From the IMG/VR virus record IMGVR_UViG_3300021964_000445, positions 1 through 26,159 of that record: a stretch of DNA of 26,159 nucleotides, one strand, 5' to 3'. Position 1 is the first letter of the stretch, and each line of letters opens with the position of its first letter. Origin of the DNA: a virus. Under the pieces are notes generated by a model. The model was not told the origin of the DNA. It saw only the letters and a list, made by a program, of their open reading frames with translations, and did no database searches. Positions 5,320 through 23,743 of this stretch are shown here, one piece after another. A program made the position numbers and the translations under genes.

Positions 5320-6905
5320 TGGCAACTTATCCTGATGACGCAATCGCCCCTGTAACTGCTTTTGGTGTAGTATCTGATGTTACTTATTCTTCAACTGGAC
5401 CTGTTCGTACAGATTTTAACCTAGCAGCTTCCGCTACCCATCGTGGCGAGGTAGTAGCTTTTGTTGATGGTGTTTTACAGCAAACTTCTGGCTATGATCT
5501 CTCAAATACAGGGCAGACAGTGTCTTTTTTGACTGCTCCAAATGCATCAAACTTAACACTTAAAACAGTTTCCTTACCTACTCGTTTTAGGTTAACACGC
5601 TCATTTCCAGCTGTAAGAACTGTAGACTATTCTAATACATCAGCTACTGTAGTCGATTCTAACTCTTTTGTCATTAATGCTAATACTGAATCATTTGCTC
5701 TACCAGAAGGAGTAAACGTTTCAGCAACTTCAGACTTTATGGTCTTTTTATCAGGTGTTTTTCAAACTTCAGATGCCTACACTTATCCTTCTGCTGTATA
5801 TGGATTTAATGGTATTGACATTGGTGATAACACTGCTGCCAAACTCATTTTGAATTTTAATGGAAACTTAACAGATGAAAGCCCGTCAGCTCATACAGTA
5901 ACAGCTAATGGTGGATCAACTTTTTCAGATGGAGCCTTTAACTTTCAAGGAACTAACTTTTTAACTGTTCCTTCAAGCAGTGATTTTGATATCGATACTA
6001 GTGATTTTACCCATGATTTAGAATTTAGGCTAACAGTTGATGAGATAGGCAATGACCAAGCATTTTATTCTCGTTATGAAGATATAAGCAATTATTATAT
6101 ATTGAAATACACAGGCGCAAACTCAAATATTGGTTTTCTAGTAAATACGGCAGGAACTTTAACTGAAGTTTATGGCGGTAATGTTAATGCTCTTTCAAAC
6201 TACCATGTAGCAGTTTCTTATGAGCGAAATGTTCAAAATCTTCGTTTATATGTAAATAATGTTATAGTTGATCATACAAACTTTACAGCAGCATCATCTC
6301 CTGCAGCTCCACTAGAACTTGGTAACGCAAATGCACTTGTATCTACTCTTGACGGTACTGTAAACTTCTACAGATTCGCAAAATCAGCTCGTTATCGTTC
6401 TGGAGGATTACAAGCTATTACTCCAACTTCTAACTATCAAGCTACAGTTATATCAGCAGCTCCTTTAGGTGCTGTAGATTCGGCAGATACTCTATCTATT
6501 CGTGTATTTGATTCAGAAGTAGTATCAGCTGACCGTTTTAATTCTATGGCCGATCGTAAACCTGATAAAGGTTTTACAGCTCAACGTACTTTTGATACCA
6601 TTAAATTTGAATCTCAGGCTGGTTATGAAAAACGTCGTTTACGCTCTCGTCGTTCTAAAAGATCCTATGATCTATCGTACACTAATATAACTGGTATTGA
6701 AAAAACAGCCATTGAGAACTTCTATAATGCCAGAAGCGGAGAATTTGAGGCTTTTATATTTGACTTGACCCATATTAATGAAATTGGTACAATTACTACA
6801 AGATTTGACGGACCTCTTACAGTTAACCATGTTTTATCGACTGGTGACAACTTAACTCAAAACTTCTATACCGTATCCTTTAAACTACAAGAGACATATG
6901 ACTAA
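5319..6905 (+). CDS. Minor tail / distal tail protein (lambda gpM-like) with LamG-like domain
   Basis: 528 aa. The last ~100 residues (425-528) look like the phage minor tail protein M/DUF2460 type: a GYEKRR motif, then ITGIEKTAIENFYNARSG and a closing beta segment that fits M proteins of lambda. In front lie two beta-rich repeats with an FVDGV/FLSGV core (about 46-75 and 140-158). Next is a LamG/concanavalin-like jelly-roll domain at about 172-355 (ALILNF-type opening, NFQGTNFLTVP, and a later YHVAVSYERNVQNLRLYVN strand pair). Lambda gpM is only about 110 aa, so this is a C-terminal M unit with a large added, possibly glycan-binding, N-terminal region. The ATG overlaps the tape measure stop by one base (TAATG), with GGAGGT upstream. 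It probably sits at the tube-baseplate junction. Confidence 0.75.
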   Translation: MATYPDDAIAPVTAFGVVSDVTYSSTGPVRTDFNLAASATHRGEVVAFVDGVLQQTSGYDLSNTGQTVSFLTAPNASNLTLKTVSLPTRFRLTRSFPAVRTVDYSNTSATVVDSNSFVINANTESFALPEGVNVSATSDFMVFLSGVFQTSDAYTYPSAVYGFNGIDIGDNTAAKLILNFNGNLTDESPSAHTVTANGGSTFSDGAFNFQGTNFLTVPSSSDFDIDTSDFTHDLEFRLTVDEIGNDQAFYSRYEDISNYYILKYTGANSNIGFLVNTAGTLTEVYGGNVNALSNYHVAVSYERNVQNLRLYVNNVIVDHTNFTAASSPAAPLELGNANALVSTLDGTVNFYRFAKSARYRSGGLQAITPTSNYQATVISAAPLGAVDSADTLSIRVFDSEVVSADRFNSMADRKPDKGFTAQRTFDTIKFESQAGYEKRRLRSRRSKRSYDLSYTNITGIEKTAIENFYNARSGEFEAFIFDLTHINEIGTITTRFDGPLTVNHVLSTGDNLTQNFYTVSFKLQETYD

Positions 6906-8479
6906 TGACAGCAAGAAATTATGATGTAGTAATTACTGTAGATAATGCTGCAGGATTTCAATCAACAAATGTTTTAATTGGTAACACCTCTGCTTCAACA
7001 GGGGTGATTGCTAATGTTGATACAACTCTTAACACTCTTAAAGTAAAGCTTTCAAATTCAATACTTGAATTTTCAAATCTTGAAGTAGTACACTCAAATG
7101 TAATCTCTATTTCTGGTACAGCTAATGGTGCTTTAAATACCACTTCTTTACCTTTCCAATCTAACACTTATGCAGGTAATACAACTACAGCTATTGCTAC
7201 TATACAGTCTATAGCTCCTAGCGGTTTTATTGCTGAGAAGAATGCTTTTACTCAGAACCCTGTTGTTAGGCTCTATGAGATATATTATCCAGGAGAATGG
7301 TACCCTGCAACTGCAGCAGGCAATCCAAGTGGTGCGGGTGAAGGGCGTGCTTGGCCTACTAATTTTCCGATCCGTTTTGCTGATATTCGTGGAGATTTGA
7401 TCTCTGACTTAAACTATAATGTTATACATCAAGGCGATTCATATATTCCTTTTCCTTCAGATATATCTAGCATTTCCCAATCAGGCGACGGTAAAATAAA
7501 CGAATTAAGTTTAACTGTTTTTAACTTGGATAATATTATCTCAGCTATAGTTGAAGACCCTTTTCTTGTAGGTAATAATCAGTCTAATGCTTGTCAAGCT
7601 TATGTAAATGGTGAATTAGTTCACGGTATCGATCCACGTACTATTAATGCAGCTCCTTCAGCTTTCGGTGCAGCAGGTACTGAGGGTTTTGATACCTTGA
7701 CACGGGCTAGAGCAAATGGTCTTGCTTATAGTGTTGATGTAGAGGGTATCTATGGCAAGGCTAATGCCTCATTTACACGAGAACAGACTTTAGCTATTGG
7801 TGGTGAATGGCAAGAAAATAAAATTGACTCAAGAGATCTTTTAGGTGCAGTAGTCACCATAAAATCAACTTTTGCAAACTTTTTAGATGTATGGCCTGAG
7901 TACAGTACTGCTCGTTTCTTAACTTCAAATGTAGTTGAAGTGTATAATGCTATGCCTTATCGTGTAGGTGATAATGTAAGAGGTGAGCTAGGAACAACTG
8001 AAGGGACTATTCAATCTATTGAAGAAAATCGTTTCTTATTCTTATCAAACCCTCTTGATTCAAATACTGCTGTTGGAGATGCGATATTTATTGTAAATTC
8101 TCAAGCGGATCCTGAATCTTATATTGAAGATGTCTTTAAGATAGATCAGCTTGAATCATTAAATGAGAGTGTGGCAACTTTTGGCCTGATCTCTTGGTTA
8201 CAATATTTTAGAAATCAAGTCCCTAATAGAAAGTACTATAAGAATACTTGTCAATGGTCATATAAAGGTGATGAGTGTCAATACCCTGGACCAGGTGGTT
8301 TAGCTATTCCTAATACTACTCTTGTCTCTAACAACAATCCTATTGCTGCAAATAATCAAATAGCTGCTTCTGCGGCAGGTGATGTATGTGGTAAATCCTT
8401 ACTGTCTTGTACTTTAAGAAATAACCAAGTTCACTTTGGAGGTTTCCCTGCAACAGGACGAACAGTCCCCAAACAATAA
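6905..8479 (+). CDS. Minor tail protein L-like, Fe-S cluster protein
   Basis: 524 aa; lambda gpL is about 230 aa. The central part (about 145-260) has the L-type segment beginning near IRFADIRGD. The C-terminal domain carries four cysteines, C449-X8-C458 and C495-X6-C502, within NTCQW, DECQYPGPGG, DVCGK and LSCTLRNN, followed by HFGGFP. The X8 and X6 spacings equal those of the cysteine pairs that hold the [4Fe-4S] cluster in lambda gpL, so the same cluster is expected here. The N-terminal 140 residues are an extra Asn/Thr-rich region not present in lambda. It is a tail-tip component between M and the K/I/J proteins. It overlaps the M gene by one base (TAATG), and its 3' end overlaps the radical SAM gene by up to 44 bases. 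Confidence 0.88.
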   Translation: MTARNYDVVITVDNAAGFQSTNVLIGNTSASTGVIANVDTTLNTLKVKLSNSILEFSNLEVVHSNVISISGTANGALNTTSLPFQSNTYAGNTTTAIATIQSIAPSGFIAEKNAFTQNPVVRLYEIYYPGEWYPATAAGNPSGAGEGRAWPTNFPIRFADIRGDLISDLNYNVIHQGDSYIPFPSDISSISQSGDGKINELSLTVFNLDNIISAIVEDPFLVGNNQSNACQAYVNGELVHGIDPRTINAAPSAFGAAGTEGFDTLTRARANGLAYSVDVEGIYGKANASFTREQTLAIGGEWQENKIDSRDLLGAVVTIKSTFANFLDVWPEYSTARFLTSNVVEVYNAMPYRVGDNVRGELGTTEGTIQSIEENRFLFLSNPLDSNTAVGDAIFIVNSQADPESYIEDVFKIDQLESLNESVATFGLISWLQYFRNQVPNRKYYKNTCQWSYKGDECQYPGPGGLAIPNTTLVSNNNPIAANNQIAASAAGDVCGKSLLSCTLRNNQVHFGGFPATGRTVPKQ

Positions 8480-9644
8480 TATTAAAGGTTGTATTCTACC
8501 TTGGATGCATTTATTCGGTTCTATAAGAGGCGAATACAAAATCTGCTGCTTTGCTGAATATGCACCTAATTCTCCAATATTAGGCACATATAAAGATTCT
8601 ATTGATTCAGTGTGGAATGGAGATACTTTAAAAAAAATAAGGAAAGATTTTTTATTAGGTAATGAAATTCCTGCCTGTGAGCATGCGTGTTTTAATAAAG
8701 AAAAACTAGGTAGTCAAAGCCATAGACAGATAATGAATAAAAACTATGAACATCTTCAATATTTACAAGATGCTACAAATTCTGATGGTTCTATAGATAA
8801 TTATCCTATCTATTTAGATGTTAGATTTGGAAATACTTGTAATTTTAGGTGTAGAATGTGCGGCCCACACTCCTCTACAAGCTGGTATAAAGAAATGCCT
8901 TCTGATCTTAAGTATCCTATTGATAAATATACCGATAATACAACTTTTTGGGAAAATATAGACATAATAGCTCCTAGTATTCGAGACGTGTATTTTGCTG
9001 GAGGTGAGCCTTTTGTTCAAGAAGGGCATTATAAATTGCTTGAATATTTAAATGAAAAAGGGTACGCTTCTAATATATCCTTAAGCTATAATACTAACTT
9101 AAGTTATAAAAAATTCAAAAAATATGACATTAAAACATTATGGAAAAACTTTAATAACATAAAACTATGGCCTAGTTGTGAAGGGTATGGAAATAGAGTT
9201 AATTATTCTAGAAAAGGTTTTTCGTGGTCTAAGTTTGAGGATAGTATAAATTACTACAAAGATTATGTTCAGACAATCAGCGCTGTGATAAGTATTTATA
9301 GCATATCAACAATGCCAGAATTATTGCTTTGGGCAAAAAATATTAACCTTAATGTTCATGGAACAACTTTAATTGACCCTTCATATATGTCAATAACTTG
9401 TTTACCTAAAGAATCAAAACGTGAAATCAATCTTAAGTTTAAAAAATTTCTTATGTCTAATTATCAACTCTTTACTTTACAAGAGTTAGATATGATTAAA
9501 TCATGGCTTTCTTATATGAATTCAAAAGATAACTCTCATCTCTTAAAAGACTTTAAAAAATTTAACGATAAATATGACCTAACTAGAAATGAAAGTTTTG
9601 AATCTACTTTTCCAGAGTACGCGGCATGGTACAAAAATATTTAA
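8436..9644 (+). CDS. Radical SAM enzyme with N-terminal twitch-like domain
   Basis: Up to 402 aa. The core motif C135-X3-C139-X2-C142 (CNFRCRMC) binds the [4Fe-4S] cluster that cleaves S-adenosylmethionine; YFAGGEP at about 188 is the usual GGE motif after it. In front of the core, C19, C37, C38, C81 and C85 (GCILPWMH, KICCF, CEHAC, then FNKEKLGSQSHR) form a twitch/SPASM-like auxiliary cluster module. This N-terminal-twitch layout is a known radical SAM family whose substrates are mostly unknown. The start is unclear: TTG 8436 has no SD, while CTG 8448 has GGAGG five bases before it; the first ATG (8505) would delete C19. Starts inside the L gene imply coupling. The gene interrupts the lambda-like order between L and K and is richer in A/T runs than its neighbours, suggesting later acquisition. 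Protein modification is plausible; the target is not shown. Confidence 0.9.
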   Translation: MEVSLQQDEQSPNNNIKGCILPWMHLFGSIRGEYKICCFAEYAPNSPILGTYKDSIDSVWNGDTLKKIRKDFLLGNEIPACEHACFNKEKLGSQSHRQIMNKNYEHLQYLQDATNSDGSIDNYPIYLDVRFGNTCNFRCRMCGPHSSTSWYKEMPSDLKYPIDKYTDNTTFWENIDIIAPSIRDVYFAGGEPFVQEGHYKLLEYLNEKGYASNISLSYNTNLSYKKFKKYDIKTLWKNFNNIKLWPSCEGYGNRVNYSRKGFSWSKFEDSINYYKDYVQTISAVISIYSISTMPELLLWAKNINLNVHGTTLIDPSYMSITCLPKESKREINLKFKKFLMSNYQLFTLQELDMIKSWLSYMNSKDNSHLLKDFKKFNDKYDLTRNESFESTFPEYAAWYKNI

Positions 9645-10015
9645 GTCTTAATCATGAATATGGTAAAGTAGATTGTATCGAGCTTATCAGACAGTTCTAT
9701 AAAGAAGAGTTAAATATAGCTTTTAACTTACCAACATACCCTAAATCAAGAGAGTGGCTTAAGCATTTTTCTGCTGAAAGTGTTGATCGCTGGGCTTCTT
9801 CTTGGTTTACAAAAGTTGAATTGACAGACGCACAAAACTATGATGTAATGATATTTAAGTCTGAGAAATCAGAACTAATTATACATTTTGGTATGTATCT
9901 TATGCCATCAAAAATGCTACACGTTGAAGAAGGGGGCTTTTCGTGTATTCAAACTCTTTCCCAATATTGGATGGATAGACTACACGCAATTTATAGACAC
10001 AATGACTTGGTATAA
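9626..10015 (+). CDS. NlpC/P60-type cysteine peptidase, first copy (K-like)
   Basis: 129 aa. NlpC/P60 features: C17 in KVDCIELI as nucleophile, H87 in IIHFGMYL as general base, and H99 in MLHVEE as the polar third residue. Such tail-tip enzymes cut peptide crosslinks in peptidoglycan during DNA entry; in lambda this domain is the C-terminal part of gpK. The ATG overlaps the end of the radical SAM gene by 19 bases and has only a weak GAG upstream, suggesting coupled translation. Together with the next gene it forms a tandem pair with the same fold. It is a minimal single-domain protein with no signal peptide, consistent with delivery in the virion. Family membership rests on motif spacing, since overall similarity to known examples is low. 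Confidence 0.75.
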   Translation: MVQKYLSLNHEYGKVDCIELIRQFYKEELNIAFNLPTYPKSREWLKHFSAESVDRWASSWFTKVELTDAQNYDVMIFKSEKSELIIHFGMYLMPSKMLHVEEGGFSCIQTLSQYWMDRLHAIYRHNDLV

Positions 10016-10430
10016 TTCTTATACAGGTTTTCCTTACAAACATCTTGGTAATGATACGGAAACAGGGATTGATTGTTTTAATCTCTGTGCACTTGTTTTT
10101 AAACAAGAATTAGGAATAGATATCCCATATACTACAGCTGACTTTTGTAATATAGTTGATGAAGATTGGTATACAAAAACTCATGAGCGTTGGATGGATC
10201 GTGCAGCTTCAGAACAACATGGATGGGTAAAAGTTAAAGATCCAAAACCCTATGATGTGATTCTTATGAGTTTAGGTTCTACCCATGTTACTAATCACTG
10301 TGCACTTTATGTAGATAAAAATAAGATACTTCAAACAATGATTAATCATAAGAGTTGGATAGCTCCTTATGGAAAATACTATAAACAATATACAACTGGA
10401 ATATTTAGATGGAAAGATTTGATGAACTAA
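10002..10430 (+). CDS. NlpC/P60-type cysteine peptidase, second copy (K-like)
   Basis: 142 aa from ATG 10002. The longer frame from 9888 would lie over the coding sequence of the previous gene for more than 100 bases, and its extra N-terminus does not look like this family. Motifs: C25 in TGIDCFNLCAL, H99 in NHCALYV and H116 in MINHKSW, the full Cys-His-polar set. The opening WYNSYTGFPYKHLGND resembles phage-encoded NlpC/P60 proteins, where the Y-x-x-G region precedes the Cys helix. The gene overlaps the first copy by 14 bases and the JAB gene by 22. It is probably the main cell wall peptidase of the tail tip and matches the standard family better than copy one. Confidence 0.85.
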   Translation: MTWYNSYTGFPYKHLGNDTETGIDCFNLCALVFKQELGIDIPYTTADFCNIVDEDWYTKTHERWMDRAASEQHGWVKVKDPKPYDVILMSLGSTHVTNHCALYVDKNKILQTMINHKSWIAPYGKYYKQYTTGIFRWKDLMN

Positions 10431-10786
10431 CTGAGGCAATGAATGCTCACGCTCTGCGAGACTATCCTCGTGAAGCCGTTGGGATTATTACTAATGATTT
10501 TAAATACATTCCTTGTAGTAATATATCTCCTGAACCAAAATTAACCTTTGTACTTGATCCAGCAGATTTAGTAAAACATGACGGAAATATATGGGGCATT
10601 TTTCATTCTCATCCAGGAGACGAAAACCCCATACCAAGTAAGGAAGATAAAGTAAGTGCTGCTTTCCAAGAATATAAATTTTTGGTAGGATTTAATAAGA
10701 AATTTTTTATCTATTGGCTTGACCAAAATCTAGACGCTCTTATCTTTGATAAGTTTGAGGAAAAACATCTTGCAGGCAACAGTTAA
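10409..10786 (+). CDS. JAB/MPN (JAMM) metalloprotease-like tail protein (N-terminal K half)
   Basis: 125 aa. Complete JAMM zinc motif: E22 (PREAVG), then H66-S-H68-P-X7-S77-X2-D80 (HSHPGDENPIPSKED). In lambda gpK a JAB domain is fused in front of the NlpC/P60 domain; here the two activities are separate genes and the order is reversed, with JAB last. Its role in tails is thought to be proteolytic or peptidoglycan-related, acting on Zn-bound substrates; the exact substrate is unknown. The ATG at 10409 lies within the last codons of the second NlpC gene, so the K-type genes form an overlapping chain. Confidence 0.9.
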   Translation: MERFDELTEAMNAHALRDYPREAVGIITNDFKYIPCSNISPEPKLTFVLDPADLVKHDGNIWGIFHSHPGDENPIPSKEDKVSAAFQEYKFLVGFNKKFFIYWLDQNLDALIFDKFEEKHLAGNS

Positions 10787-11510
10787 AGTTCATTCATCTT
10801 TACATAAGTATTTTGACTATACAGAGTTACGTGCTGACTTTAACACGTACTATGACTTAATTCCTTATCTTAGTGCTATGCATCCGCGTTTTAAACATTA
10901 CATGAATATGGTAAAATGGGGTGAAACTAATGAAGGCTTTACTTTTTTAGATAAAGATCTTAATCTTGTTACTGAAGAAGATCTGCATATTAAACGTATT
11001 CATGAAGGGGATACTATTTATTTAACACCTGTAATTGCAGGAGGTGGCGGTAAGAATGGCGGATTATTAGCCGCTGCTCTAGTTGTTGGTTTAGCTGTTG
11101 CTTTTCCCCCAGCTGCTGCTGGTTTAACTGGCACAGTTGGCACAGGTACCTCGTTAGTAGGTGGAGCTCTCGGTTCTGCACCTTCTGTAGTTGCTCCAAT
11201 AACTACTGGTGGCGGTGGCGGGTTGTTAGCTTCTTTTTCTGCTATGCCTGGCTTTGCTCAATCACTATTTATGAACGTAGGTTTATCATTAATTTCTTCA
11301 CTCTTTGCTAAGAAGAAAAAACCAACGGATACAGATACTTCCACTAGACAAGGAGGCGCTTTCGGCTCTTTGACTAATTCAACTCAATCAGGTACTCCTA
11401 TTGCACTTCATTATGGACAAGTGCGCGTTGCAGGCCAAATGTTAAGCGGTTATATTGATTCTGATGATCATGGTAAAAATGATGTTGTCAGAGTAGAGGA
11501 TAAATTCTAA
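10770..11510 (+). CDS. Tail assembly protein I-like
   Basis: 246 aa from TTG 10770. This start gives MQATVKVHSSLHKYF and has GAGGAAA nine bases upstream; an earlier in-frame TTG at 10746 lacks one. The N-terminal 75 residues look like a beta-grasp fold of the lambda tail protein I type, ending at DTIYLTPVIAGGGGKNGG. A Gly/Ala-rich hydrophobic stretch (about 95-185) follows, possibly membrane-active, then a hinge with KKKKP. The C-terminus ends with GTPIALHYGQVRVAGQMLSG, a strongly conserved motif of I proteins. The lambda homologue acts with J in tail tip assembly. It overlaps JAB by 17 bases and J by one (TAATG). Confidence 0.85.
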   Translation: MQATVKVHSSLHKYFDYTELRADFNTYYDLIPYLSAMHPRFKHYMNMVKWGETNEGFTFLDKDLNLVTEEDLHIKRIHEGDTIYLTPVIAGGGGKNGGLLAAALVVGLAVAFPPAAAGLTGTVGTGTSLVGGALGSAPSVVAPITTGGGGGLLASFSAMPGFAQSLFMNVGLSLISSLFAKKKKPTDTDTSTRQGGAFGSLTNSTQSGTPIALHYGQVRVAGQMLSGYIDSDDHGKNDVVRVEDKF

Positions 11511-14500
11511 TGGCAAGAAACTTCACAAAATACCAACATCAATTTGTACCTGTTATTGGAGGTTCTAAAGGAGGTAAAGGCGGAGGCGGAGGTGCGTCTG
11601 AAGATCCTAACTCTTTATTCTCGACTGATATCGTATTTATTACAAATGGTTTAGGTGAAGGACCTGTATATAGAATCAATCCAAACGGTCCTCAAGATAT
11701 TGAGATTCAAGACAACACTATTGATGATTTGATCGACTTTGCTACCAATACTACTGATGGCGAAAAATTTATCACTCTATCTTCAACAGGTACTACTACA
11801 CAAGATCGCCTTGATGTGTTTGGTGAGTCTATTGTTACTCCTCAAAACTTTGCTTCACCTGTATCTCTTAAAAAAGGTAACCTAGCAGGTGTTCCAGCAG
11901 TAAAAGTTTCTGACCAAGAAACTTCTGCTCAAGCTTGGGATGCTATTAAGTTTAACTTTGCTCTTAATGGACTACAGAAGATTGAGCCAGATGGTGATGT
12001 CAAGATTCATACAGTTTCAATTAAGATCACTCTAAAGAATAAAGTTTTAACTGGTAACCCTTTTAATGATGATATAACAACTGTCTCTAAAACTATAACA
12101 GGTAAAACTAATACTACTTTTAAGTTTAGTGTAAAAGTAAATGTTCCACCAGCTTCAAGAAATGATGCAGGCTACCGTTTTACTATTGAGAAGACTTCTA
12201 ATGACTCTGATTCTTCGGGTACCTCAGACAATATTCAGGCTACAGGTTGGTTTGAGATTGAAAATGCTGCACAAGCCTATCCTCGTACAGCTGTGATAGG
12301 TTATGCTCTAAAAGCTGTTGATGAACATCAAAATGGTATCCCTAACTTTACTTCTCTAGTTAAAGGGCTTATTGTAAAAGTTCCATCAAACTATAATCAA
12401 CCTATACTTACTAATGGGGAGATTGATTGGAGAGAAGTAGAGGTACCTGCTACTGGAAGTCCAAGTATAGCACAGGGCTACTCATTACAATCTTCAGGAG
12501 CTGGTACTAAGCTAACAGCTACAGATCCCCAAATATATATTGGTTCATGGGACGGTACTTTTGTATACTCTTGGACACAAAACCCTGTTTGGATAATTTA
12601 TGACATTCTAACTAATAATACTTACGGATTAGGAGTTCCAGAAGAGTATATAGATAAATATAAATTTTATCAAGTAGCACAGTACTGTGATGCTTGTGAT
12701 GCTGTCACCGGTAAGTTTATAGGAGTAGATGCCTTATCTGATGGATCTTTTAGACATAAACCTAGGGGGTTTTACGCAACTACACGAGAAAACCAAATAG
12801 GTCTTCCGTCAGGCACTGCTATTAAACAACGTAGATTTACTCTTGACATTAGCATCGCTGATGAAGGTCAAGCAATGGATATCTTAAATGAGATTACTTC
12901 TTCTTTTAGAGCAGCCTTAGTCTATTCTTTAGGCAAGCTAACTCTCGCCGTTGATATGCCTGATGAATATCCTGTAGCAGTATTTAATGAAACAAATATT
13001 AAACAAGGTTCTTTAACAATCACAGGTATTAAAGAAAGTGATGTTATATCTGGTGTAGACGTATCGTATATAGAACCAACAAACCACTATAAACGTGAAA
13101 CAGTTAGAGTAGATACTTCTGATGCGAATGATGGTATAGAAAAGAATATTATCCGTAATATCACGTCTCTTGACTTGAAAGGTGTTACTCGTAGAAGCCA
13201 AGCTCTTCGTTTTGCTCAATATCAGATCGCTTCTTCTAAATATCAGAGAAGATCTCTCTCATTTACTACTTCTACTGATGCTCTACAACTAGCTCCTGGT
13301 GATGTTATATCAGTAGCTCAACAGACCTCAGGAATTGCTTACGGATACAGTGGTAAGATACATGCTAATTCAGCTATTGGTGCGAGCTCTAATACAAATG
13401 TATTTTTAGAACACTTTACATCCCCTTCTTTGTCTAATTCTATTTTTACTGCTAATTCAGGTCCTCTTGCTCTTAGAGTTATTAAGATGAAAGATGATAG
13501 AGTAGATTTATATCTAGTAAGTAATACTGCTTTCAATCTTTCAGCGACAGATAATGTATCAACAGGTGTAGATTTAGCTGAAATCAATTTAATTTCTAAG
13601 TTTAATAAACAAACTAGACAGTTTCAAGGAATATCAACTTTTGATCAAACTATCGCTCCTGAAAAAGGAGATCTGTGGTCTTTTGGAGAAATAGAAAACC
13701 CAAATAACTATTATACCAGTAAAGCAGGTAAACTATTTAAAATTACAGGCATAGATCGTCAACCAAAAGAAGAGGAAGTTACAATCTCTGCTATTGAGTA
13801 TATTTCTAATGTCTATGTAGATTCTGATACCTTTATTGATTATACTCCTACTGCTTATACAGATATTGTATCACCACTATCTGTACCTCCAGCACCTTAT
13901 TTTACCTTTTCTGCTCAACCAAGACGTAGGCTAGACGGTACAGTTGCGGTAGATGGTGTTTTAGATTTCAGAAATGAGCTATTAGGTTATAATCAGGATC
14001 TCAGAACAGAGTACTTTATTTCTCGTCCTGACGGTTCTTCTCTTGTTAATAATGTTTATGCTGGATCATTAAACGTTATTGTAAGTGATCAAAACGTATT
14101 AACTGCTGGGTCTACAGCAACTCTAACTGGTAAAAATGGTTTTCAATCAACTATCGGAGAAATAAGACTTTTAGCTAATGCCTTTACTACAGTAGACACA
14201 GGAGGCGGAACTCTAGATGGTAACGTAGAATTAACTCTCGAAGGTTTAAACGTAGCTTTTGATGAAAACTTTTTTAAGCATGTATTAGAAGTAAACGATG
14301 GTGGAGTTTTTGCTAATCTTAAGGGTAGTGATACTATCTCAATACCTGTAAAAGATAAAACTGCTCCTCAAGGATTATTAAATTTTGTAGGATTTGCTTC
14401 TGATATTTCTGCATTAAGCGTTAATGTAGTAGGATTTGATAAGTCTCTAAATACTTTAAAATTTGAGAATACATTAACTAATGGATTAAATCTTGTAGAC

Positions 14501-17224
14501 TTATTACCTCCAGCTCCTTTCTATATTACTTTAAATCAGTTATTAGATGCACGTTATTTTAGTAATAATAGCTTCTATGTTAGTGGCTCAGAGTTTACAT
14601 ATGAAACAGAAGGCAACTTAGCAACTTCAGGATCTACTACTATACCTCTTGAAATTACCCCTCGTTCAGCAGATTTTGTTAGATTGTATATTGATGGAGT
14701 TTTAAAATCAACAGGACAATACACTGTTAATCTTAATAAATCTCTATCTATAGATGCTAATATTATCTACACTCTTCAATCTGGAGACGTTCTGTATAGA
14801 GCTGAAGTAGATCACTATACTGTTCCTGCTATTGAGATTGGTGACAATGTTCAAACATCCTTTAATAATACATTTTCAGTCATTAATACTTCTTTTGACC
14901 CAGAAAGTGCTACCTATAACGCAGCATTAACAGCTAATACTATTTATCGTGTAGAATTGGGCACTACCCCAACAGCAAATTTGACTGGTTTCTCTTTTGT
15001 TAATATTGAATCAGACCCTGTAGGTAGTATAGCAAATGTAAGTGGTAATGCCTGTACTTTAGACTATAATGAGACTACCTATCCTTCAACTTTTAACCTT
15101 GGCAACAATAGAATCTACAACCTAACTGTCGGTGGAGAATTTGAAAAATTCTTTGTAGGACAAGACCAGGTTATTAGAGATCTACCAGTTGGAACTACCT
15201 CAATCAAAGCTAGAAATAAAAGCGTATTAGGTAGATTTAGTCCTTTTACTACTAAATCAGTTACTGTAGCTACCATTCCTATCCAACGTGTAACAGGTCT
15301 TGCCGTCACTGAATCTTTATATCGTGAACAAACAGGCGGTGTCGCAGTTCGTGCAACTTGCTCTTTTGATCATATTACTGGACAAGAAGTGACAGATTAT
15401 GAAATTTCTTACAGATTAGCTACTATTGATGATGTAGGTATCAATGATGGTGGTGCTGATCTAACCTCTTTCAATACTGTAAAAGTTCCCTCAACTGGTA
15501 TTGATGATGACGGAAAAATTCGTTTTACCGTGCAAGGTATTAACCGTGGTACTTCTTCAGGTTTGAACTCTATTACTTTTAGAGTAACACCTCTTAATAA
15601 AACTATCAGAGGTAAGACAGCCACTATAACAAAAACTATTATTGGTAAAACAGCTACTCCTACAAATATCTTTAACTTTACTGGCGGTCAAAATACTGAT
15701 CAGATTACTCTTTTATGGCAATATCCTCGTGCTGTTTCTGGAGATCTTCTTGATCTTGATTTAAAAGAAGTTGTAATCCGTCGTGCTCCTGGCGCTGTTG
15801 CAAATACTGTAGCAAACTTCGTAGCGTCTGATCCTCTTGTAACTGTATCAGCTGGTACCGCTCGTAAATCAATTCCAATTGATACTTTTGGAGAGTTTAC
15901 TTATCTAGCTCGTGCTAGAGATACAAGTGGTAACTTTAGTGAAGATGTTCAAGCAATTACTTTTACAACTTCGCGTCCTGATCGCTCTACTGTTGTTGCA
16001 GCTTATAATGAAGACTCTCCTGGCACTGATTTTACTGTAATAACTAATACAAACCAAGGCGAATCTAACTTCCCATCATTTGCAGATTCTAACTCTGGAG
16101 GACTAGCATATGATTATACTTCTGCAGTAGACAATGCTAATGGTACTGCAGAAGGTTTTTCAGCTATTGGTGGTTCTCCTACAGATCTACTTGTAGAAGA
16201 TGATGGTGTTTATGTCACACAGATTAGAGATTTTGGAGCAACGGTTACTGGTTCTATCTTTGTTGACATTGAAGCAACTCAAGAAATTAAAACTACCTAT
16301 AACGATACGCACGAAGCATTGATTACTGGAGTTACAGAAGCGTCTCCTAACGGTAATGTGTTAGTAGATGTTGATTTTGGTGGGATAGGCCATGTTTTAG
16401 GTTTTGCAAATACCTCTCAACCTAATCAACGATATGACGCAAATAATAAAACTTGGATGACAGGCGGAGTATCAGGTAATGTATATGGTATATATAACCA
16501 TGGTCAATATGTAGGTGATACAGCTAATGCTAATTCTTATGCATTGATTGCAGGTTTAATAAACGCCACAGCAATTGAGTTAGGTGCGTCTTATTATGCT
16601 AATGGCGATCCTACAGGTTCTAATGGTTTTTCTAATATTACTGTATCTGGTAATACCTATGAATTGGTTAACTTTACTCAGTTTGCGGATACTGGTTCCG
16701 GTGATACCTATGAAGGGTCCTTAGGAGCCATATCTGCACAAACCCTAATTAGAACTACAACAGCTGATAATTCTTCTCTTTACTATGCAAATGGTAACGT
16801 AGATACTTCTCAGTTTGTTGGTGCTAGTGTAAATGATGGTTTTACCACTTATCAAGCGGGTTCTCGTACTTTCCGTCAGTTCCAATTAAAATTTATCGTA
16901 AACAATTCAAAGCCTAATGAATTTGACTTTACAATTGATAAATTTAGGTATAGTATAGAAAAAGATACAGTCACATTTACTGACACCGTAACTTATGACG
17001 GTACACCAAAAACCGTTAGTCTTGCTACAGCAAACTTTTTGAACAGACCTGTAATTTCTTATGCAATTCTAGATCAAATAGATGCAGTAGCAAATCCTGC
17101 TATTGTTGTCACCACTTCAGCAAGTAATTTGCAAGTACAGTTCCAGTTAGTAGCAGCAGATGGTACAGGTGCTTATCAGGCAAATAGCACAGCAAATGTT
17201 ATGGTAACAGCAGTAGGAGTATAA
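11510..17224 (+). CDS. Tail tip attachment protein J-like (host specificity)
   Basis: 1904 aa, larger than lambda J (1132 aa). The N-terminus has a Gly/Lys linker (about 17-30). A central part near 350-530 contains WTQNPVWIIYDILTNNTYGLG, the J/phage-tail_3 hallmark. Two fibronectin type III-like segments lie near 1256-1380 and 1385-1490 (strands VTDYEISYRLA, then TYLARARDTSGNFS). The C-terminal 400 residues are Asn/Thr/Ser-rich beta structure, the likely receptor-binding end. A repeat with core VRLYIDGVLK near 1060 resembles units in the M-like and fibre-like proteins. J forms the tip trimer that contacts the host receptor, so the distal region should vary most between relatives. Start TAATG with AGAGGATAA upstream. 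Confidence 0.92.
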   Translation: MARNFTKYQHQFVPVIGGSKGGKGGGGGASEDPNSLFSTDIVFITNGLGEGPVYRINPNGPQDIEIQDNTIDDLIDFATNTTDGEKFITLSSTGTTTQDRLDVFGESIVTPQNFASPVSLKKGNLAGVPAVKVSDQETSAQAWDAIKFNFALNGLQKIEPDGDVKIHTVSIKITLKNKVLTGNPFNDDITTVSKTITGKTNTTFKFSVKVNVPPASRNDAGYRFTIEKTSNDSDSSGTSDNIQATGWFEIENAAQAYPRTAVIGYALKAVDEHQNGIPNFTSLVKGLIVKVPSNYNQPILTNGEIDWREVEVPATGSPSIAQGYSLQSSGAGTKLTATDPQIYIGSWDGTFVYSWTQNPVWIIYDILTNNTYGLGVPEEYIDKYKFYQVAQYCDACDAVTGKFIGVDALSDGSFRHKPRGFYATTRENQIGLPSGTAIKQRRFTLDISIADEGQAMDILNEITSSFRAALVYSLGKLTLAVDMPDEYPVAVFNETNIKQGSLTITGIKESDVISGVDVSYIEPTNHYKRETVRVDTSDANDGIEKNIIRNITSLDLKGVTRRSQALRFAQYQIASSKYQRRSLSFTTSTDALQLAPGDVISVAQQTSGIAYGYSGKIHANSAIGASSNTNVFLEHFTSPSLSNSIFTANSGPLALRVIKMKDDRVDLYLVSNTAFNLSATDNVSTGVDLAEINLISKFNKQTRQFQGISTFDQTIAPEKGDLWSFGEIENPNNYYTSKAGKLFKITGIDRQPKEEEVTISAIEYISNVYVDSDTFIDYTPTAYTDIVSPLSVPPAPYFTFSAQPRRRLDGTVAVDGVLDFRNELLGYNQDLRTEYFISRPDGSSLVNNVYAGSLNVIVSDQNVLTAGSTATLTGKNGFQSTIGEIRLLANAFTTVDTGGGTLDGNVELTLEGLNVAFDENFFKHVLEVNDGGVFANLKGSDTISIPVKDKTAPQGLLNFVGFASDISALSVNVVGFDKSLNTLKFENTLTNGLNLVDLLPPAPFYITLNQLLDARYFSNNSFYVSGSEFTYETEGNLATSGSTTIPLEITPRSADFVRLYIDGVLKSTGQYTVNLNKSLSIDANIIYTLQSGDVLYRAEVDHYTVPAIEIGDNVQTSFNNTFSVINTSFDPESATYNAALTANTIYRVELGTTPTANLTGFSFVNIESDPVGSIANVSGNACTLDYNETTYPSTFNLGNNRIYNLTVGGEFEKFFVGQDQVIRDLPVGTTSIKARNKSVLGRFSPFTTKSVTVATIPIQRVTGLAVTESLYREQTGGVAVRATCSFDHITGQEVTDYEISYRLATIDDVGINDGGADLTSFNTVKVPSTGIDDDGKIRFTVQGINRGTSSGLNSITFRVTPLNKTIRGKTATITKTIIGKTATPTNIFNFTGGQNTDQITLLWQYPRAVSGDLLDLDLKEVVIRRAPGAVANTVANFVASDPLVTVSAGTARKSIPIDTFGEFTYLARARDTSGNFSEDVQAITFTTSRPDRSTVVAAYNEDSPGTDFTVITNTNQGESNFPSFADSNSGGLAYDYTSAVDNANGTAEGFSAIGGSPTDLLVEDDGVYVTQIRDFGATVTGSIFVDIEATQEIKTTYNDTHEALITGVTEASPNGNVLVDVDFGGIGHVLGFANTSQPNQRYDANNKTWMTGGVSGNVYGIYNHGQYVGDTANANSYALIAGLINATAIELGASYYANGDPTGSNGFSNITVSGNTYELVNFTQFADTGSGDTYEGSLGAISAQTLIRTTTADNSSLYYANGNVDTSQFVGASVNDGFTTYQAGSRTFRQFQLKFIVNNSKPNEFDFTIDKFRYSIEKDTVTFTDTVTYDGTPKTVSLATANFLNRPVISYAILDQIDAVANPAIVVTTSASNLQVQFQLVAADGTGAYQANSTANVMVTAVGV

Positions 17225-18427
17225 ATGTCATTAGTAGATTCCAATACCTTTATTGAACCAACCGCAGGTACTTCACTAAATGCGGCTCGTGGTCAGTATA
17301 ATAATTCATTAAGATCTCTTCTTACTAACTTTCGCTCATCTGGCGCTCCTACAACAGTTAATTTAACTGCTTCAGGAGCTAATATTGGTGAACAAGACGG
17401 TATGTTATATCGTCATGCCAATGCTAACGTTAATGCTCTTTATATTTCTGACTCTGGACAGGTAAAAGATGCTCCTGTAGGTGGTAATTTTACTCGTGTT
17501 GGTATAGGTAACAGAGTTGAAAATGGTATTGTAGCTCTAATGGCAAATGCTACTCATTACGAGATAGGCGAACTTGTTGCTACCGTATCAGCTGATGTAG
17601 GTTTAGCTTCCAATGCTCGTTTATATTTAAATAAATCTAACAATAATACACCAGCAGACTTCATTGATGTAGGTATACCTCCTACTAATGGCTCCGTAGT
17701 TAATACCATGATTGCAATTGGAGGAGTGACTACAGATAAAGTAAACTTTACTTTTCAAAACTTTACTTCTGCTCCTAATAATAGGCAAAATGCTCATCTA
17801 AAGATTGGCACAGCAGGAGCTGCTTCTAATACTTCAATCTTATTAGGTTCTCAAAATACCACTTCTAATGTGTCGATAGTAAAATTACATGGAGGAGTTG
17901 GTAAAGATGCAGGTATATCAATTTTTGATCAAGGAAATAAATACGCTCCTATATCAGCTAACATTGTATCTCAGTCAACTATTCAAGGAACTGACACAGC
18001 TGTCGCTCCTCTTATACCTGCAGGATCTGTTATAGCCTGGTCTGGGGCTAGTGTACCTTCAGGCTGGTTAAAATGTGACGGTACTGCTGTAAGTAGGACT
18101 ACTTATGCAGCATTATTTGGTATTACAGGTACTGCTTTTGGTGTAGGTGATGGGTCTACTACTTTTAATTTACCTGATTTAAAGGATAGAGTTATTTTAG
18201 GAGATGGGAATAATAATATCAGAGGTCAACAATTAGGCTCTTTTTCAAGTACTTCTAAAATAACTACAGATTCTGGTTCAGCATCACTAAGTGTTGCTTC
18301 TATAGTGGTATCTGTTGGAGCTAAAGATGCTGGAGGTGTAACTGTTGTAAACGGAGTTAATTCAACAGGTCATACCCATACTGCAACAATTCCGAGCACT
18401 GTGCTACTGTATATAATTAAAACTTAA
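17225..18427 (+). CDS. Tail fibre/tip protein with tail collar domain
   Basis: 400 aa. The C-terminal third holds a phage tail collar domain, about 262-335: AGSVIAWSGASVPSGW, then CDGTAVSRTTYAAL and FNLPDLKDRVILG, the classic microcollar signature. It ends with HTHTATIPSTVLLYIIKT, a His pair often binding metal in trimeric fibres. Residues 1-250 are an Asn/Ala-rich beta-repeat region. Such proteins are trimeric tips or fibre parts in contact with the host surface. The ATG follows the J stop directly, with AGGAG five bases ahead. It is probably the first gene of the distal adhesion set, followed by an acidic partner. Confidence 0.85.
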   Translation: MSLVDSNTFIEPTAGTSLNAARGQYNNSLRSLLTNFRSSGAPTTVNLTASGANIGEQDGMLYRHANANVNALYISDSGQVKDAPVGGNFTRVGIGNRVENGIVALMANATHYEIGELVATVSADVGLASNARLYLNKSNNNTPADFIDVGIPPTNGSVVNTMIAIGGVTTDKVNFTFQNFTSAPNNRQNAHLKIGTAGAASNTSILLGSQNTTSNVSIVKLHGGVGKDAGISIFDQGNKYAPISANIVSQSTIQGTDTAVAPLIPAGSVIAWSGASVPSGWLKCDGTAVSRTTYAALFGITGTAFGVGDGSTTFNLPDLKDRVILGDGNNNIRGQQLGSFSSTSKITTDSGSASLSVASIVVSVGAKDAGGVTVVNGVNSTGHTHTATIPSTVLLYIIKT

Positions 18428-18437
18428 GAGGGAAAAA

Positions 18438-18902
18438 ATGGAATACATAAAATTTAATATTGATGAAATGAATCAGCAACAAGTCTTCTGTGAGTACAGA
18501 GAGTTTAAAGATGGTGAAAAAGGTCCTATGATAACTAGAGCTTTTCCTTTAGATGTTTTAGGAGAACAAGAGCCTAAAATACTTGAAATGGTTTCTGGAG
18601 AAATTATTGGTGTCTACTATGAAAAACGTGGATCTATCCAAGTCAAAGAAACAAATTATCTTGAATACAATGACTCTATTGAAGATGAAGAAGTTGAATG
18701 GATTGAAGAGTTTGTTAAAAAAGTCTGCATACAGGAAGCATATGATGAACTTTTAAAACCACCTACAGTAGATCAACAGGTTGAAGATTTTATTAAAGAG
18801 TTTTTTGAGGATGAGGAAGAAGAGCCACTAGAGCAAAAAGACTTTCTCGCTGAGTTCTTTGCTGAATTAGAATCAGAGGACGAAAACGACTCTAAGGAGT
18901 AA
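18438..18902 (+). CDS. Acidic protein of unknown function, possible fibre chaperone
   Basis: 154 aa, mixed alpha/beta at the start (MEYIKFNIDEM, FPLDVLGEQEPKILEMVSGEIIGV) and strongly acidic at the end (FFEDEEEEPLEQKDF and further Glu/Asp-rich residues). I do not recognise a family. The position between two fibre-type genes and the acidic tail fit a small fibre assembly factor or chaperone, like other phages that carry one after a collar or fibre gene, but this is only positional. Good SD (GAGGG) eight bases before the ATG. No signal peptide or transmembrane helix is seen. Confidence 0.75.
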   Translation: MEYIKFNIDEMNQQQVFCEYREFKDGEKGPMITRAFPLDVLGEQEPKILEMVSGEIIGVYYEKRGSIQVKETNYLEYNDSIEDEEVEWIEEFVKKVCIQEAYDELLKPPTVDQQVEDFIKEFFEDEEEEPLEQKDFLAEFFAELESEDENDSKE

Positions 18903-18904
18903 AA

Positions 18905-20392
18905 ATGGCACTAACTAGGATTACATCAGGAGTACTAGGATCTAATGCAGTTTCCGCTGAGAAACTTGCAAATGGATCTATCACGTCTAGAACTCTAGGC
19001 AATAATTCTATTGAGTTAAAGCATTTAGCTTCTTCAGCTAATTTTACAACTACTATTAACACTGTTAGTTCTAATGTTGATGGTTTACAGACAAATGTAA
19101 ACTCAGTATCTGCAAATGTAGGTGCTATGATTACTAATACTAATATTGTTACTGCTAATGTTAGAAATGTAGCTGCAAATACTATTCAAAATAAAGCTAA
19201 CATGGCTGTTATATCAGCTAATACTGTACAGACTAAAGCTAATATAAATGTATTACATGCTAATATTGTAGCGGCTGAATCAAATATTGGATTAATTCTT
19301 GACGGTACATCACCTTTTACAGGTGCTGTTACTATGCAAGATACTCTAACAGTTCAAGGCAACCTAGTTGTTGTTGGTGCTCAGGTTGACCTTGGTATCG
19401 GTTCAGCACAAATTGATGATGCTACACTACTTTTAGCTGCGAACACTCCTCCAGCACAAGGGCTTCCTACTGACTCAGGTATTCTAATTAATCGCGGTGC
19501 TAATGCAAACGTATTCTTTGGGTTCGCTCAATATGGAGATCATATTGACTTTATCTTTACAGACGCTCCTGCTGATAATACCCAGCACTTTGCTATCTCA
19601 TATATTGATGTACACGCTAACTCTTTTGGTACTGATGCAACACATACCCCAGGATTTACTGGATTTCATCATGCAGACCATCCTGACACTGGTATGTATT
19701 TTATACCAACTGAAGATAAAATTTCTTTCTCAACAGGCGGCACAAACCAGGCAAATATTCTTTCATCAGGCAATATTGAATTAACTATTGGTAGTATAGA
19801 ACAGATTGATGGTAACCGTATCGATCTTAAGAGAAACTCTAATATCATTCTTAATAGTACTGATTCTGTTAAGATTCTACTTGATGTAGACAATGACGAT
19901 ACAGCTAGTTTCTTAGGGATCTATAGTGATACCGCAGATGAAACAACTGCTGTAGATAGCGCTCTAGTCTCGATTCGTGATGACGGTAACGTGTTTATTG
20001 CACACGACATTAACGTTGTAGGTAATGCAAATGTAAATAGTGTTAATTTGTTATCTAATGACTTCGTAACTTACACCCGTCTTAACGCTAATATTAATGT
20101 TGTTTCACAAAACGTTGATTCTGGTGTTGGTCTTGTTAAAAAAGTAAATGCAGCAGTATCTACAGGATCTTCTAATGTGTTTTATGTAGCGACACCAACT
20201 GCGACCCAAATTCCTTCTGATATTGATAAAGTAAATGTATTTATTGATGGTATCAGACAAATACCAGATAATCCTGGCACTTCTAATAATGACTTTGTCT
20301 ATAGTTCTGTGGATGCTTCTGTTACAATAACAGATGCTAGTTTACCAGCAGGCTTAAATGTTATAATTGACGCACTCTGCCCACGTCCGTAA
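18905..20392 (+). CDS. Trimeric tail fibre-like structural protein
   Basis: 495 aa. The N-terminus MALTRITSGVLGSNAVSAEKL is a pattern seen at the N-termini of marine phage fibres. Residues ~50-130 form regular Asn/Val repeats of 7-8 residues (SSNVDGLQTN, SANVGAMITN, TANVRNVAAN and so on), which predict a trimeric coiled coil. The middle has Gly/Asp-rich beta segments with DTGMYF and KISFSTGGTNQANILSS, similar to fibre shafts of cyanophage-type proteins. The last ~55 residues carry a VNVFIDGIRQ repeat, ending in ALCPRP with the only cysteine of the protein in its penultimate segment. SD AAGGAG is near the start. The stop overlaps the start of the second radical SAM gene by one base (TAATG). 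Confidence 0.82.
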   Translation: MALTRITSGVLGSNAVSAEKLANGSITSRTLGNNSIELKHLASSANFTTTINTVSSNVDGLQTNVNSVSANVGAMITNTNIVTANVRNVAANTIQNKANMAVISANTVQTKANINVLHANIVAAESNIGLILDGTSPFTGAVTMQDTLTVQGNLVVVGAQVDLGIGSAQIDDATLLLAANTPPAQGLPTDSGILINRGANANVFFGFAQYGDHIDFIFTDAPADNTQHFAISYIDVHANSFGTDATHTPGFTGFHHADHPDTGMYFIPTEDKISFSTGGTNQANILSSGNIELTIGSIEQIDGNRIDLKRNSNIILNSTDSVKILLDVDNDDTASFLGIYSDTADETTAVDSALVSIRDDGNVFIAHDINVVGNANVNSVNLLSNDFVTYTRLNANINVVSQNVDSGVGLVKKVNAAVSTGSSNVFYVATPTATQIPSDIDKVNVFIDGIRQIPDNPGTSNNDFVYSSVDASVTITDASLPAGLNVIIDALCPRP

Positions 20393-21375
20393 TGAGATCT
20401 ATAAGACAACTATCTACTGAACTAACATTTAGATGTAACGCCCGTTGTCCTGCTTGCCACCGTCAAAAACCTTTATCTGTAAATTTAAATGATTCAAAGT
20501 ACACAATCTCACTAGATCAGTTTAAGCAGCTATTTAACCCAGAATTATTGCAAGATCTTCAGTGGCTGATGTTTAATGGTAATTTTGGTGATTCTATAAT
20601 GAATAAGCATTTTAGAGAAATTTTATCTTATGTTAAGTCACAAGGCACCAAAATTAAAATACATACTAATGGCGGTATTCATAATCATGACTACTGGACT
20701 GACGTAGGCAACATACTAACAAAAGATGATATAATAAATTTTGATTTAGATGGTTTATGGGATACTCATCATATTTATCGTATAAATACCGAGTTTGAAA
20801 AAGTTTTCTCTAATGCTAAGTCAGTGATTTCAACTAATCGACCCCAGGTACATTGGAAATATATTGTATTTGAGCATAATAAACACCAAGTTGAAGAAGC
20901 TAGACAATTAGCTGAAACCGCTGGTTTTACTACTTTTTCTACTGTTAAAACTTCTCGTGATGTATTTGCTCCTAAAACAGGAACTTTTGTTCATTCTAAA
21001 AAAACTCAAATCTATGAAAAGGCTGAAAGACAAATACACTGCGTATGGGATAATTGGGGTAAGTGGTATATCTCACCAGAAGGTTTAGTCTTTAGGTGTT
21101 GTTGGACTGGTGGCCACTACTATGATCAAGGCGAAAAACGTTTTTACTATCCTCCTAAATTTGAACGCATGTTTAACGGTTTTCATGTTCCCATCCAAAA
21201 AATAATAAGTTATGATTATTGGAGTAAGTTACAAACATATTTATCAGGATATGAGCGTTCTTTTTCACTTTGTAAGTCTCAGTGTGGTAAAATAGTTTCA
21301 TCTATTGAGAAAACAGAAGAAAACTTAAAAACAGGTGAAAAGAACGTGTTAGAGTACAATACTCAGGAGAGCTAA
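20392..21375 (+). CDS. Radical SAM enzyme with C-terminal SPASM/twitch-like cysteines
   Basis: 327 aa. C15-X3-C19-X2-C22 (FRCNARCPACHRQ) is the S-adenosylmethionine cluster motif, placed near the N-terminus as usual; FNGNFGD near 63-69 replaces the more common GGE. The C-terminal part has C217, C236, C237, C294 and C298 (HCVWDNWG, SPEGLVFRCCW, LCKSQCGK), consistent with an auxiliary Fe-S cluster of the SPASM/twitch kind, used by enzymes that modify peptides or proteins. The start ATG shares its A with the stop of the fibre gene, so translation is coupled to it. Its place within the tail genes hints at a virion protein substrate, but the sequence does not prove this. The other radical SAM gene in the window has the matching cysteines at the other end. 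Confidence 0.9.
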   Translation: MRSIRQLSTELTFRCNARCPACHRQKPLSVNLNDSKYTISLDQFKQLFNPELLQDLQWLMFNGNFGDSIMNKHFREILSYVKSQGTKIKIHTNGGIHNHDYWTDVGNILTKDDIINFDLDGLWDTHHIYRINTEFEKVFSNAKSVISTNRPQVHWKYIVFEHNKHQVEEARQLAETAGFTTFSTVKTSRDVFAPKTGTFVHSKKTQIYEKAERQIHCVWDNWGKWYISPEGLVFRCCWTGGHYYDQGEKRFYYPPKFERMFNGFHVPIQKIISYDYWSKLQTYLSGYERSFSLCKSQCGKIVSSIEKTEENLKTGEKNVLEYNTQES

Positions 21376-23612: not shown

Positions 23613-23743
23613 TGAGTATAGTTCCTGAAGTTTTTATGCGTTCCATGCCTGACATAAAGCGTAAAAAGAAAAAGAGAACATTAATGAAAAAACGTAAAAT
23701 ATCTCTTAAAGAAATATATGGTACTAACTCGAAAAAGACCTAA
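23612..23743 (+). CDS. Very small basic ORF (43 aa)
   Basis: ATG 23612 overlaps the previous stop (TAATG) and runs to TAA 23741-23743. The product, 43 aa, is strongly basic (KRKKKKR, MKKRK). The one-base overlap copies the junction style used throughout this transcription unit, and its end is about 25 bases before the terminator. Both points support a real last gene. The coding 3' end also overlaps the end of the convergent methyltransferase-like gene (23724-23743). Function unknown. Confidence 0.6.
   Translation: MSIVPEVFMRSMPDIKRKKKKRTLMKKRKISLKEIYGTNSKKT

Follow-up and report, generated by a model that had tools for sequence, protein, structure and literature searches.

Two radical SAM enzymes, termed rSAM1 and rSAM2, are permanent members of the tail operon in a widespread lineage of marine siphophages, and their placement together with their contrasting evolution speaks for a chemical change, made late in infection, to parts of the tail or to something on the host surface. 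We give a probability of about 0.4 to the explanation that both are late tail-operon enzymes modifying virion tail components, rSAM2 being fixed and rSAM1 being an interchangeable specificity enzyme. The window, i.e., the whole stretch of DNA analysed, comprises 26,159 nucleotides of one strand (positions 1 to 26,159 of IMG/VR record IMGVR_UViG_3300021964_000445). The original prediction of two radical SAM enzymes in a tail module was borne out with regard to enzyme type, auxiliary-cluster cysteines and fixed tail placement. Also, in agreement with its statement that no such case was known for lambda-type tails, no earlier report of radical SAM enzymes associated with phage tails or virion modification was found in the literature outside subscription journals and preprints.

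Homologues of the lambda genes L, K, I and J were found in this order by profile matches and tblastn, as expected for a lambda-type tail module, and all genes from L to the one behind rSAM2 lie on the plus strand. The homologue of minor tail protein L (6905..8479; lambda gpL type with C-terminal cysteines; PF05100, E = 2.9e-29; TIGR01600 over cut-off) precedes rSAM1 (8448..9644), which is followed by the NlpC/P60-like protein NlpC1 (9626..10015; PF00877, E = 1.5e-7). The lambda K-like parts are a second NlpC/P60 protein, NlpC2 (10002..10430; PF00877, E = 1e-11; start set from relatives), and a JAB-domain tail protein (10409..10786; PF14464, E = 2e-11; phrog_30). A lambda I-like tail assembly protein (10746..11510; phrog_32, E = 1.3e-20), a lambda J-like central tail protein (11510..17224), which matched tail tip protein J of many phages in tblastn (best E = 2e-37), and a tail collar/fibre protein (17225..18427; PF07484, E = 2.6e-22) come next. 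An acidic protein of 154 aa (the 18438 gene, 18438..18902) and a variable fibre-like protein (18905..20392), both without family matches, lead to rSAM2 (20392..21375), directly after which a small basic protein is encoded (21375..21584). Gene order and families are therefore common to the window and the lambda tail, but in the window rSAM1 and an extra NlpC gene are inserted between L and the K-like genes, and rSAM2 stands after the fibre gene.

By its sequence, rSAM1 is an intact twitch-type radical SAM enzyme. It matched family NF033640 (N_Twi_rSAM) over nearly the full model (positions 5-398 of 398) with 348.4 bits (curated cut-off 170; E = 5.7e-104) and PF04055 with 29.6 bits (cut-off 29.5), and its N-terminal module was over the cut-off of PF13186 (SPASM) at residues 19-82. 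Five auxiliary cysteines, C15-x17-C33C34-x42-C77-x3-C81 (A2 numbering), lie ahead of the core C131-x3-C135-x2-C138, and all of them were invariant among 22 relatives with identities down to 44%. Since rSAM1 belongs to this named family, for which we know of no assigned function, its N-terminal twitch is not new; the phage clade differs from the rest of NF033640 in being a separate, supported branch (100/99), in standing alone within a lambda-type tail operon and in undergoing allele exchange. The AlphaFold model of rSAM1 had a pLDDT of 88, and a VIA-align structural comparison covered mainly its model residues 71-361 and not the N-terminal module. BlsE was the top structural match, with MoaA and viperin structures as further matches. 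SkfB, SuiB and anSME, i.e., RiPP and protein maturases, were among the best structural matches as well and were counted toward virion modification.

The original prediction had each enzyme gene starting inside or on the stop of a tail gene. This is correct for rSAM1, which starts inside L, and for rSAM2, whose ATG overlaps the fibre stop codon by 1 nt in the window, but the TTG at 8436 proposed for rSAM1 is probably the wrong start. Haplotypes were compared for the element GGAGG-N5-CTG inside the L gene (8438..8450, plus strand), which probably supplies rSAM1 with its ribosome-binding site and start codon. All 20 distinct haplotypes that have neither ATG nor GTG nor a TTG further downstream to start from retain it, and three of these 20 have lost the TTG at 8436; for this reason CTG 8448 is the better candidate. 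Where one of those other starts is available, the element was often gone, and it was absent from a clade without rSAM1. Judged from these haplotypes, the Shine-Dalgarno sequence plus start codon inside L is under selection.

With an invariant CX3CX2C motif and radical SAM folds as its best structural matches, rSAM2 can be placed in the radical SAM superfamily, although its PF04055 score (20.1 bits) was below cut-off. It belongs to no named family (phrog_21308, E = 8.9e-28; TIGR04317, E = 1.7e-13, below cut-off), and NF033640 was not among its family matches. The core (C15-x3-C19-x2-C22) is followed by the auxiliary cysteines C217-x18-C236C237-x56-C294-x3-C298, and all were invariant among 23 relatives with identities down to 72%. 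The auxiliary region carries twitch-like cysteines without a profile match to SPASM/twitch models, and the predicted structure (mean pLDDT 64) was too weak around the cysteines to judge the module; SkfB and BlsE were the best folds for this low-confidence model. As every cysteine is invariant in the 22 and 23 relatives, the patterns of the two enzymes are not due to chance. They agree exactly with those originally read as the same auxiliary cysteines at opposite ends of the two proteins, but the likeness is one of spacing only: an hhalign comparison of the two modules gave a probability of 0.1% and an E value of 0.68, a similarity that is not significant and that does not thereby prove separate origin, and homology of the modules was rejected for want of a profile signal. 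The same alignment still paired CC with CC and C-x3-C with C-x3-C. The further proposal that a twitch-like module had been moved was not supported, as the N-terminal twitch is a known family trait and found the twitch of BtrN (best solved match, E = 0.0026), not that of rSAM2. One four-cysteine auxiliary-cluster pattern is common to the phage enzymes and to the C-terminal twitch enzymes BtrN, MoaA, SkfB and BlsE; a C-terminal extension is the described twitch arrangement (PMC9012708), whereas the rSAM1 module precedes the core.

The pairing with L and fibre genes, checked in environmental contigs, was conserved in at least 79 loci for rSAM2 and at 91 distinct junction sequences for rSAM1. In 156 of 159 scorable loci rSAM1 directly followed the L homologue, and all 79 relatives whose rSAM2 junction was read have a fibre gene ahead of the enzyme gene, mostly with a stop/start overlap of 1 nt. 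All 80 rSAM2 loci fell within the block J-collar-18438-fibre-rSAM2, the collar, 18438 and fibre genes being present in 61/61 scorable loci, and every contig spanning both slots (17/17, window and divergent contigs included) carried both enzymes. NlpC1 accompanied rSAM1 at every one of the 138 rSAM1 loci that could be scored, and one clade lacked both rSAM1 and NlpC1, a single co-loss event. Because the loci are all from one phage lineage, the shared position partly reflects shared ancestry.

The two enzymes have evolved in opposite ways. In several lineages rSAM1 was exchanged with gene-exact borders, identity dropping to 46-61% between flanks of 80-100%, and extra changes on the L tree numbered 4-6 for rSAM1, 0-1 for NlpC1 and JAB and 0-3 for NlpC2. 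In contrast, rSAM2 remained steady, with a mean identity of 71%, even as the fibre gene beside it was replaced (43%). Relatives outside the tail or without the partners, which would have spoken against the prediction, were rare exceptions for rSAM1 and were not seen for rSAM2. Two rSAM1 orthologues of the tail-linked clade lie away from a detectable tail, one on a Neomarinimicrobiota chromosome and one on a contig without detectable L or J. Further close rSAM1 copies were looked for in 245 Neomarinimicrobiota genomes, of which 1 has the gene; no close viral relatives of the chromosomal stand-alone rSAM1 appeared in a scan with that copy, and apart from itself the stand-alone copy G033 matched nothing above 33% identity in its scan. 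No rSAM2 relatives were confirmed in the bacterial genomes scanned, both empty searches being without a positive control.

Both enzymes are translated along with the tail-tip and fibre genes. If virion tail components are the targets, the enzymes would be expressed late from the tail operon, and a SAM-derived radical would modify these components, whose protein nature and identity we infer, during tail building. The activity of rSAM2 would be fixed and directed at a conserved component of the tail, whereas that of rSAM1 would be interchangeable, with alleles traded between phages as for a specificity or host-adaptation function. The opposite evolutionary behaviour makes this reading testable, the modification made by rSAM2 being expected to stay the same and that made by rSAM1 to vary. 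If tails are indeed modified in this way, we know of no earlier virion with a radical modification introduced by an enzyme; the marine phage lineage concerned is abundant, and some of the numerous radical SAM genes of marine viruses that still lack an explanation would gain one. That marine lambda-type siphophages finish their tails with fixed rSAM2 and swappable rSAM1, the traded alleles changing the modification and hence host recognition or escape, is a more speculative extension that we regard as doubtful; it would amount to type switching by an enzyme at the tail level instead of by receptor-binding sequence. Counted against virion modification were the lack of a substrate motif, the two rSAM1 orthologues off the tail and the distant relatives beside sugar-type genes.

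A tail-operon position is no proof of a tail substrate, as morons occur there too. The enzymes might instead act in the synthesis or alteration of a sugar, glycan or other small molecule and be passengers in the tail operon, serving a host-surface change, superinfection exclusion or a decoration that a glycosyltransferase such as the one encoded at 24253..25365 transfers, an explanation that we consider somewhat unlikely but deserving of serious attention. The rSAM1 N-terminal module is closest to BtrN, an aminocyclitol dehydrogenase (PMC9012708), and the top structural match, BlsE, is a blasticidin biosynthesis enzyme. Downstream of the block, a glycosyltransferase-family-28-like gene (24253..25365, minus strand; PF04101, E = 1.1e-7) was conserved in 37/37 scorable loci. 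Distant relatives of both enzymes, sometimes in one locus, occur in multi-radical-SAM arrays of T4-like and related phages and of bacteria, together with UDP-glucose dehydrogenase, galactosyltransferase-type, aminotransferase and carbamoyltransferase genes. Such arrays are found in Campylobacter phage CP220, Pelagibacter phage Mosig, marine T4-like genomes and the pelagimyophage host-recognition region (PMC2853527, PMC5332604, PMC7029224), and with their sugar or amino-acid enzymes they have been described as interchangeable or auxiliary. The stand-alone rSAM1 on a bacterial chromosome also counts toward this explanation, and the allele swapping is consistent with surface chemistry. However, in the window's lineage each enzyme is single and inside the tail operon, the tail block is without the pathway genes that the distant relatives have, and the enzyme genes adjoin L and fibre genes much more tightly than is usual for such genes. 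Should the substrate be a glycan, selection at the phage-host interface would still be clearly indicated by a gene that keeps its place in the tail operon while its alleles are exchanged.

It is improbable that, as first proposed, each enzyme matures its neighbour, rSAM1 acting on L or NlpC1 and rSAM2 on the fibre. Strict adjacency, overlapping starts and the joint absence of rSAM1 and NlpC1 from one clade favour such pairs, but L was 89-100% and NlpC1 mostly 74-93% identical where rSAM1 dropped to 46-61%, the fibre changes while rSAM2 does not, stand-alone rSAM1 copies exist, and the co-loss happened once only. rSAM1-gene distances correlated with those of every tail gene, no one gene standing out. 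A conserved peptide or motif adjoining the enzyme, as is the criterion for RiPP and protein maturases, was not found at the rSAM loci; beside rSAM2, fibre C-termini differed or were unrelated among loci. The C-terminal CPRP tail of the fibre was confined to the window and its nearest relatives, and the small gene at 21375 was absent from one clade that keeps rSAM2, so that both were rejected as candidates. In the clade without rSAM1, L, NlpC2 and JAB were inspected for the loss of a residue that might be a substrate, and nothing striking emerged, with 2 of 77 conserved columns of L differing, both conservatively.

Action on a host target in defence, translation or nucleotide metabolism, i.e., as anti-host morons in the late region, has a similarly small chance of being correct. 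The rSAM1 allele exchange resembles that of arms-race genes and viperin structures were among the matches, but the viperin likeness is confined to the common core and rSAM2 hardly varies. Morons usually differ from phage to phage in whether and where they occur, whereas rSAM1 and rSAM2 do not. That the enzymes are Fe-S carriers or scaffolds loading the cluster of L, not catalysts, is very improbable: the lambda homologue of L does hold a [4Fe-4S] cluster (PMC10721106) and rSAM1 overlaps the L gene, but lambda needs no such helper and both enzymes keep the entire SAM-binding CX3CX2C core without variation.

The window is an IMG/VR virus record of 26,159 bases. Its tail module encodes, in this order, tail chaperones, a tape measure, a DUF2460 protein, the lambda gpL-type minor tail protein L (6905-8479), the radical SAM enzyme rSAM1 (8448-9644, plus strand), two NlpC/P60 proteins (NlpC1, 9626-10015; NlpC2, 10002-10430) and a JAB protein (10409-10786), followed by an I-like protein, a J-like protein (11510-17224), a collar protein (17225-18427), an acidic protein of 154 amino acids (18438-18902), a fibre-like protein (18905-20392) and a second radical SAM enzyme, rSAM2 (20392-21375, plus strand). 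Both enzyme genes are intact. The NCBIfam model NF033640 (N_Twi_rSAM) matches rSAM1 with an E value of 5.7e-104, and residues 19-82 of rSAM1, N-terminal to the core, give a SPASM-type Pfam match. For rSAM2, the only family matches were general radical SAM models and phrog_21308, a phage family of 735 amino acids to part of whose profile it aligns. The auxiliary cysteine patterns originally described for the two enzymes proved exact, and all of those cysteines are invariant among 22 relatives of rSAM1 and 23 of rSAM2. The families of these enzymes are known, or close to known ones, and NCBIfam already names the N-terminal twitch; the literature searched contained no case of a radical SAM pair fixed in a lambda-type tail operon with one member undergoing allele exchange.

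The junction between L and rSAM1 was surveyed by scanning first with L and then with its homologue from a divergent clade. rSAM1 lies directly 3' of L in 156 loci, is absent in three, and four more were too short for scoring. Some contigs entered the set more than once, so the 156 loci represent 91 different junction sequences. The three loci lacking it (L133, L140 and L141) form one clade with L proteins 97-100% identical, on short contigs that also lack NlpC1 and carry NlpC2 directly after L. A scan with rSAM2 yielded 121 relatives, and in the best 80 of these 121, which were fetched, the same block holds rSAM2 in every case (80/80). In the 79 readable loci its start coincides with the end of the upstream fibre gene, a one-base overlap being commonest, and all 61 rSAM2 loci having enough sequence contain the collar, 154-residue and fibre genes. 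The pairing of the enzymes with L and fibre genes noted in the original prediction is therefore conserved. Both enzymes occur in the window and in all 16 fetched contigs spanning both slots, including distant members with L just 48-62% identical, and contigs with one enzyme missing appear, judged by coordinates, to stop short of the relevant slot. Downstream of the rSAM2 block, on the opposite strand, a GT28-like glycosyltransferase gene (24253-25365) and a methyltransferase-like gene (by eye; 23724-24317) are conserved in 37 of 37 scorable loci.

In most relatives, the rSAM1 frame lacks an ATG or GTG ahead of the conserved region. At 8438-8450, within the L gene, GGAGG is followed after a 5-base gap by CTG. 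None of the 20 distinct haplotypes that have no other start has lost either element, and three of these haplotypes lack the TTG (8436) first proposed as the start. In relatives that can start at an ATG, a GTG or a later TTG, GGAGG is frequently changed to GGCGG or GGAGC, and the clade without rSAM1 has neither element. Since this signal is kept where no alternative exists and is often lost where one does, rSAM1 probably starts at CTG 8448, with translation signals overlapping the L coding sequence.

Between phages sharing L at 89-100% identity, rSAM1 identity can fall to 46-61%. The window and locus L085 share 94% identity in L, 87% in NlpC1, 92% in NlpC2 and 96% in JAB, with 52% in rSAM1. Corresponding values for L, rSAM1 and NlpC1 are 93, 50 and 93% for L180/L196, 90, 46 and 84% for L099/L100 and 90, 56 and 74% for L093/L104; for L and rSAM1 they are 100 and 56% for L154/L155 and 100 and 61% for L202/L265. 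From the 3' end of L onwards identity falls, and it recovers where rSAM1 ends wherever the right flank is present, L155 and L202 being excluded at this border as their sequences end before it. Mapped on the L tree, the allele classes of rSAM1 require 4-6 changes beyond the minimum, compared with 0-1 for NlpC1 and JAB and 0-3 for NlpC2. The confined drop and the extra changes indicate that rSAM1 alleles are swapped as units, leaving their neighbours behind. rSAM2 behaves in the opposite way: its mean identity over all pairs is 71%, versus 43% for the fibre, whose C-terminus is unrelated in five loci. As neither enzyme evolves in step with its neighbour, L and fibre are not supported as the precise targets that had been proposed.

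That both enzymes serve the phage lineage in a tail context is shown by their fixed placement, their overlapping starts and their retention across large divergence. The most economical reading of these sequence patterns, to which we assign a probability near 0.4, is that virion tail components would be modified during assembly by rSAM2 as a constant and rSAM1 as an exchangeable enzyme. Its main rival, glycan or small-molecule chemistry at the phage-host interface, draws on the conserved GT28-like gene and on the gene company of distant relatives. Distant rSAM1 relatives (28-33% identity) in other virus contigs often lie in arrays that also include UDP-glucose dehydrogenase, genes of glycosyltransferase type and several more radical SAM genes. 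In the virus contigs of loci L203-L235, arrays contain as many as about eight radical SAM genes, and many include glycosyltransferase-like genes, UDP-glucose dehydrogenase and uncharacterized recurrent families. An rSAM2-like gene is present in 9 of 33 virus loci with distant rSAM1 relatives, and around bacterial distant relatives 18 of 61 scanned neighbour proteins are radical SAM proteins. The cultured phages CP220 and Mosig carry distant relatives within similar arrays, and radical SAM gene groups in phages of this type have been noted (PMC2853527, PMC5332604, PMC7029224).

The predicted structure of rSAM1 was good (pLDDT 88); over its core it resembles BlsE, MoaA, SkfB, anSME and SuiB, and among solved structures its N-terminal module matched the BtrN twitch (E = 0.0026). 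The rSAM2 model (pLDDT 64) was poor around the cysteines, with SkfB and BlsE as top matches, and a profile comparison of the two auxiliary modules gave no significant similarity. The known enzymes among these matches have peptides, proteins, sugars and nucleotides as their substrates, so structural similarity does not discriminate among the possible targets.

In a tree of 44 proteins, the tail-linked rSAM1 clade is well defined (support 100/99) and includes two members not adjoining tail genes. One (L285, 7878-9062; 49% identity) is a lone orthologue on a contig of a Neomarinimicrobiota MAG, among what by eye are ordinary chromosomal genes (pyrF/pyrE-like, patatin-like, secretion); an orthologue occurs in 1 of 245 Neomarinimicrobiota genomes. 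The other lies on a virus contig of 43 kb; searches of this contig found no L and no J, J being detected in control contigs and the L search having no positive control. A third radical SAM gene, of a different kind (L312, 500-1465; contig G001), lies outside the tail region of a relative of 54.6 kb, beside a possible glycosyltransferase gene. Contig G004, from a relative with rSAM2 at its usual place, carries a distant N_Twi-type radical SAM gene (L314, 3588-4685; 30% identity) that is not in the tail module but close to thyX.
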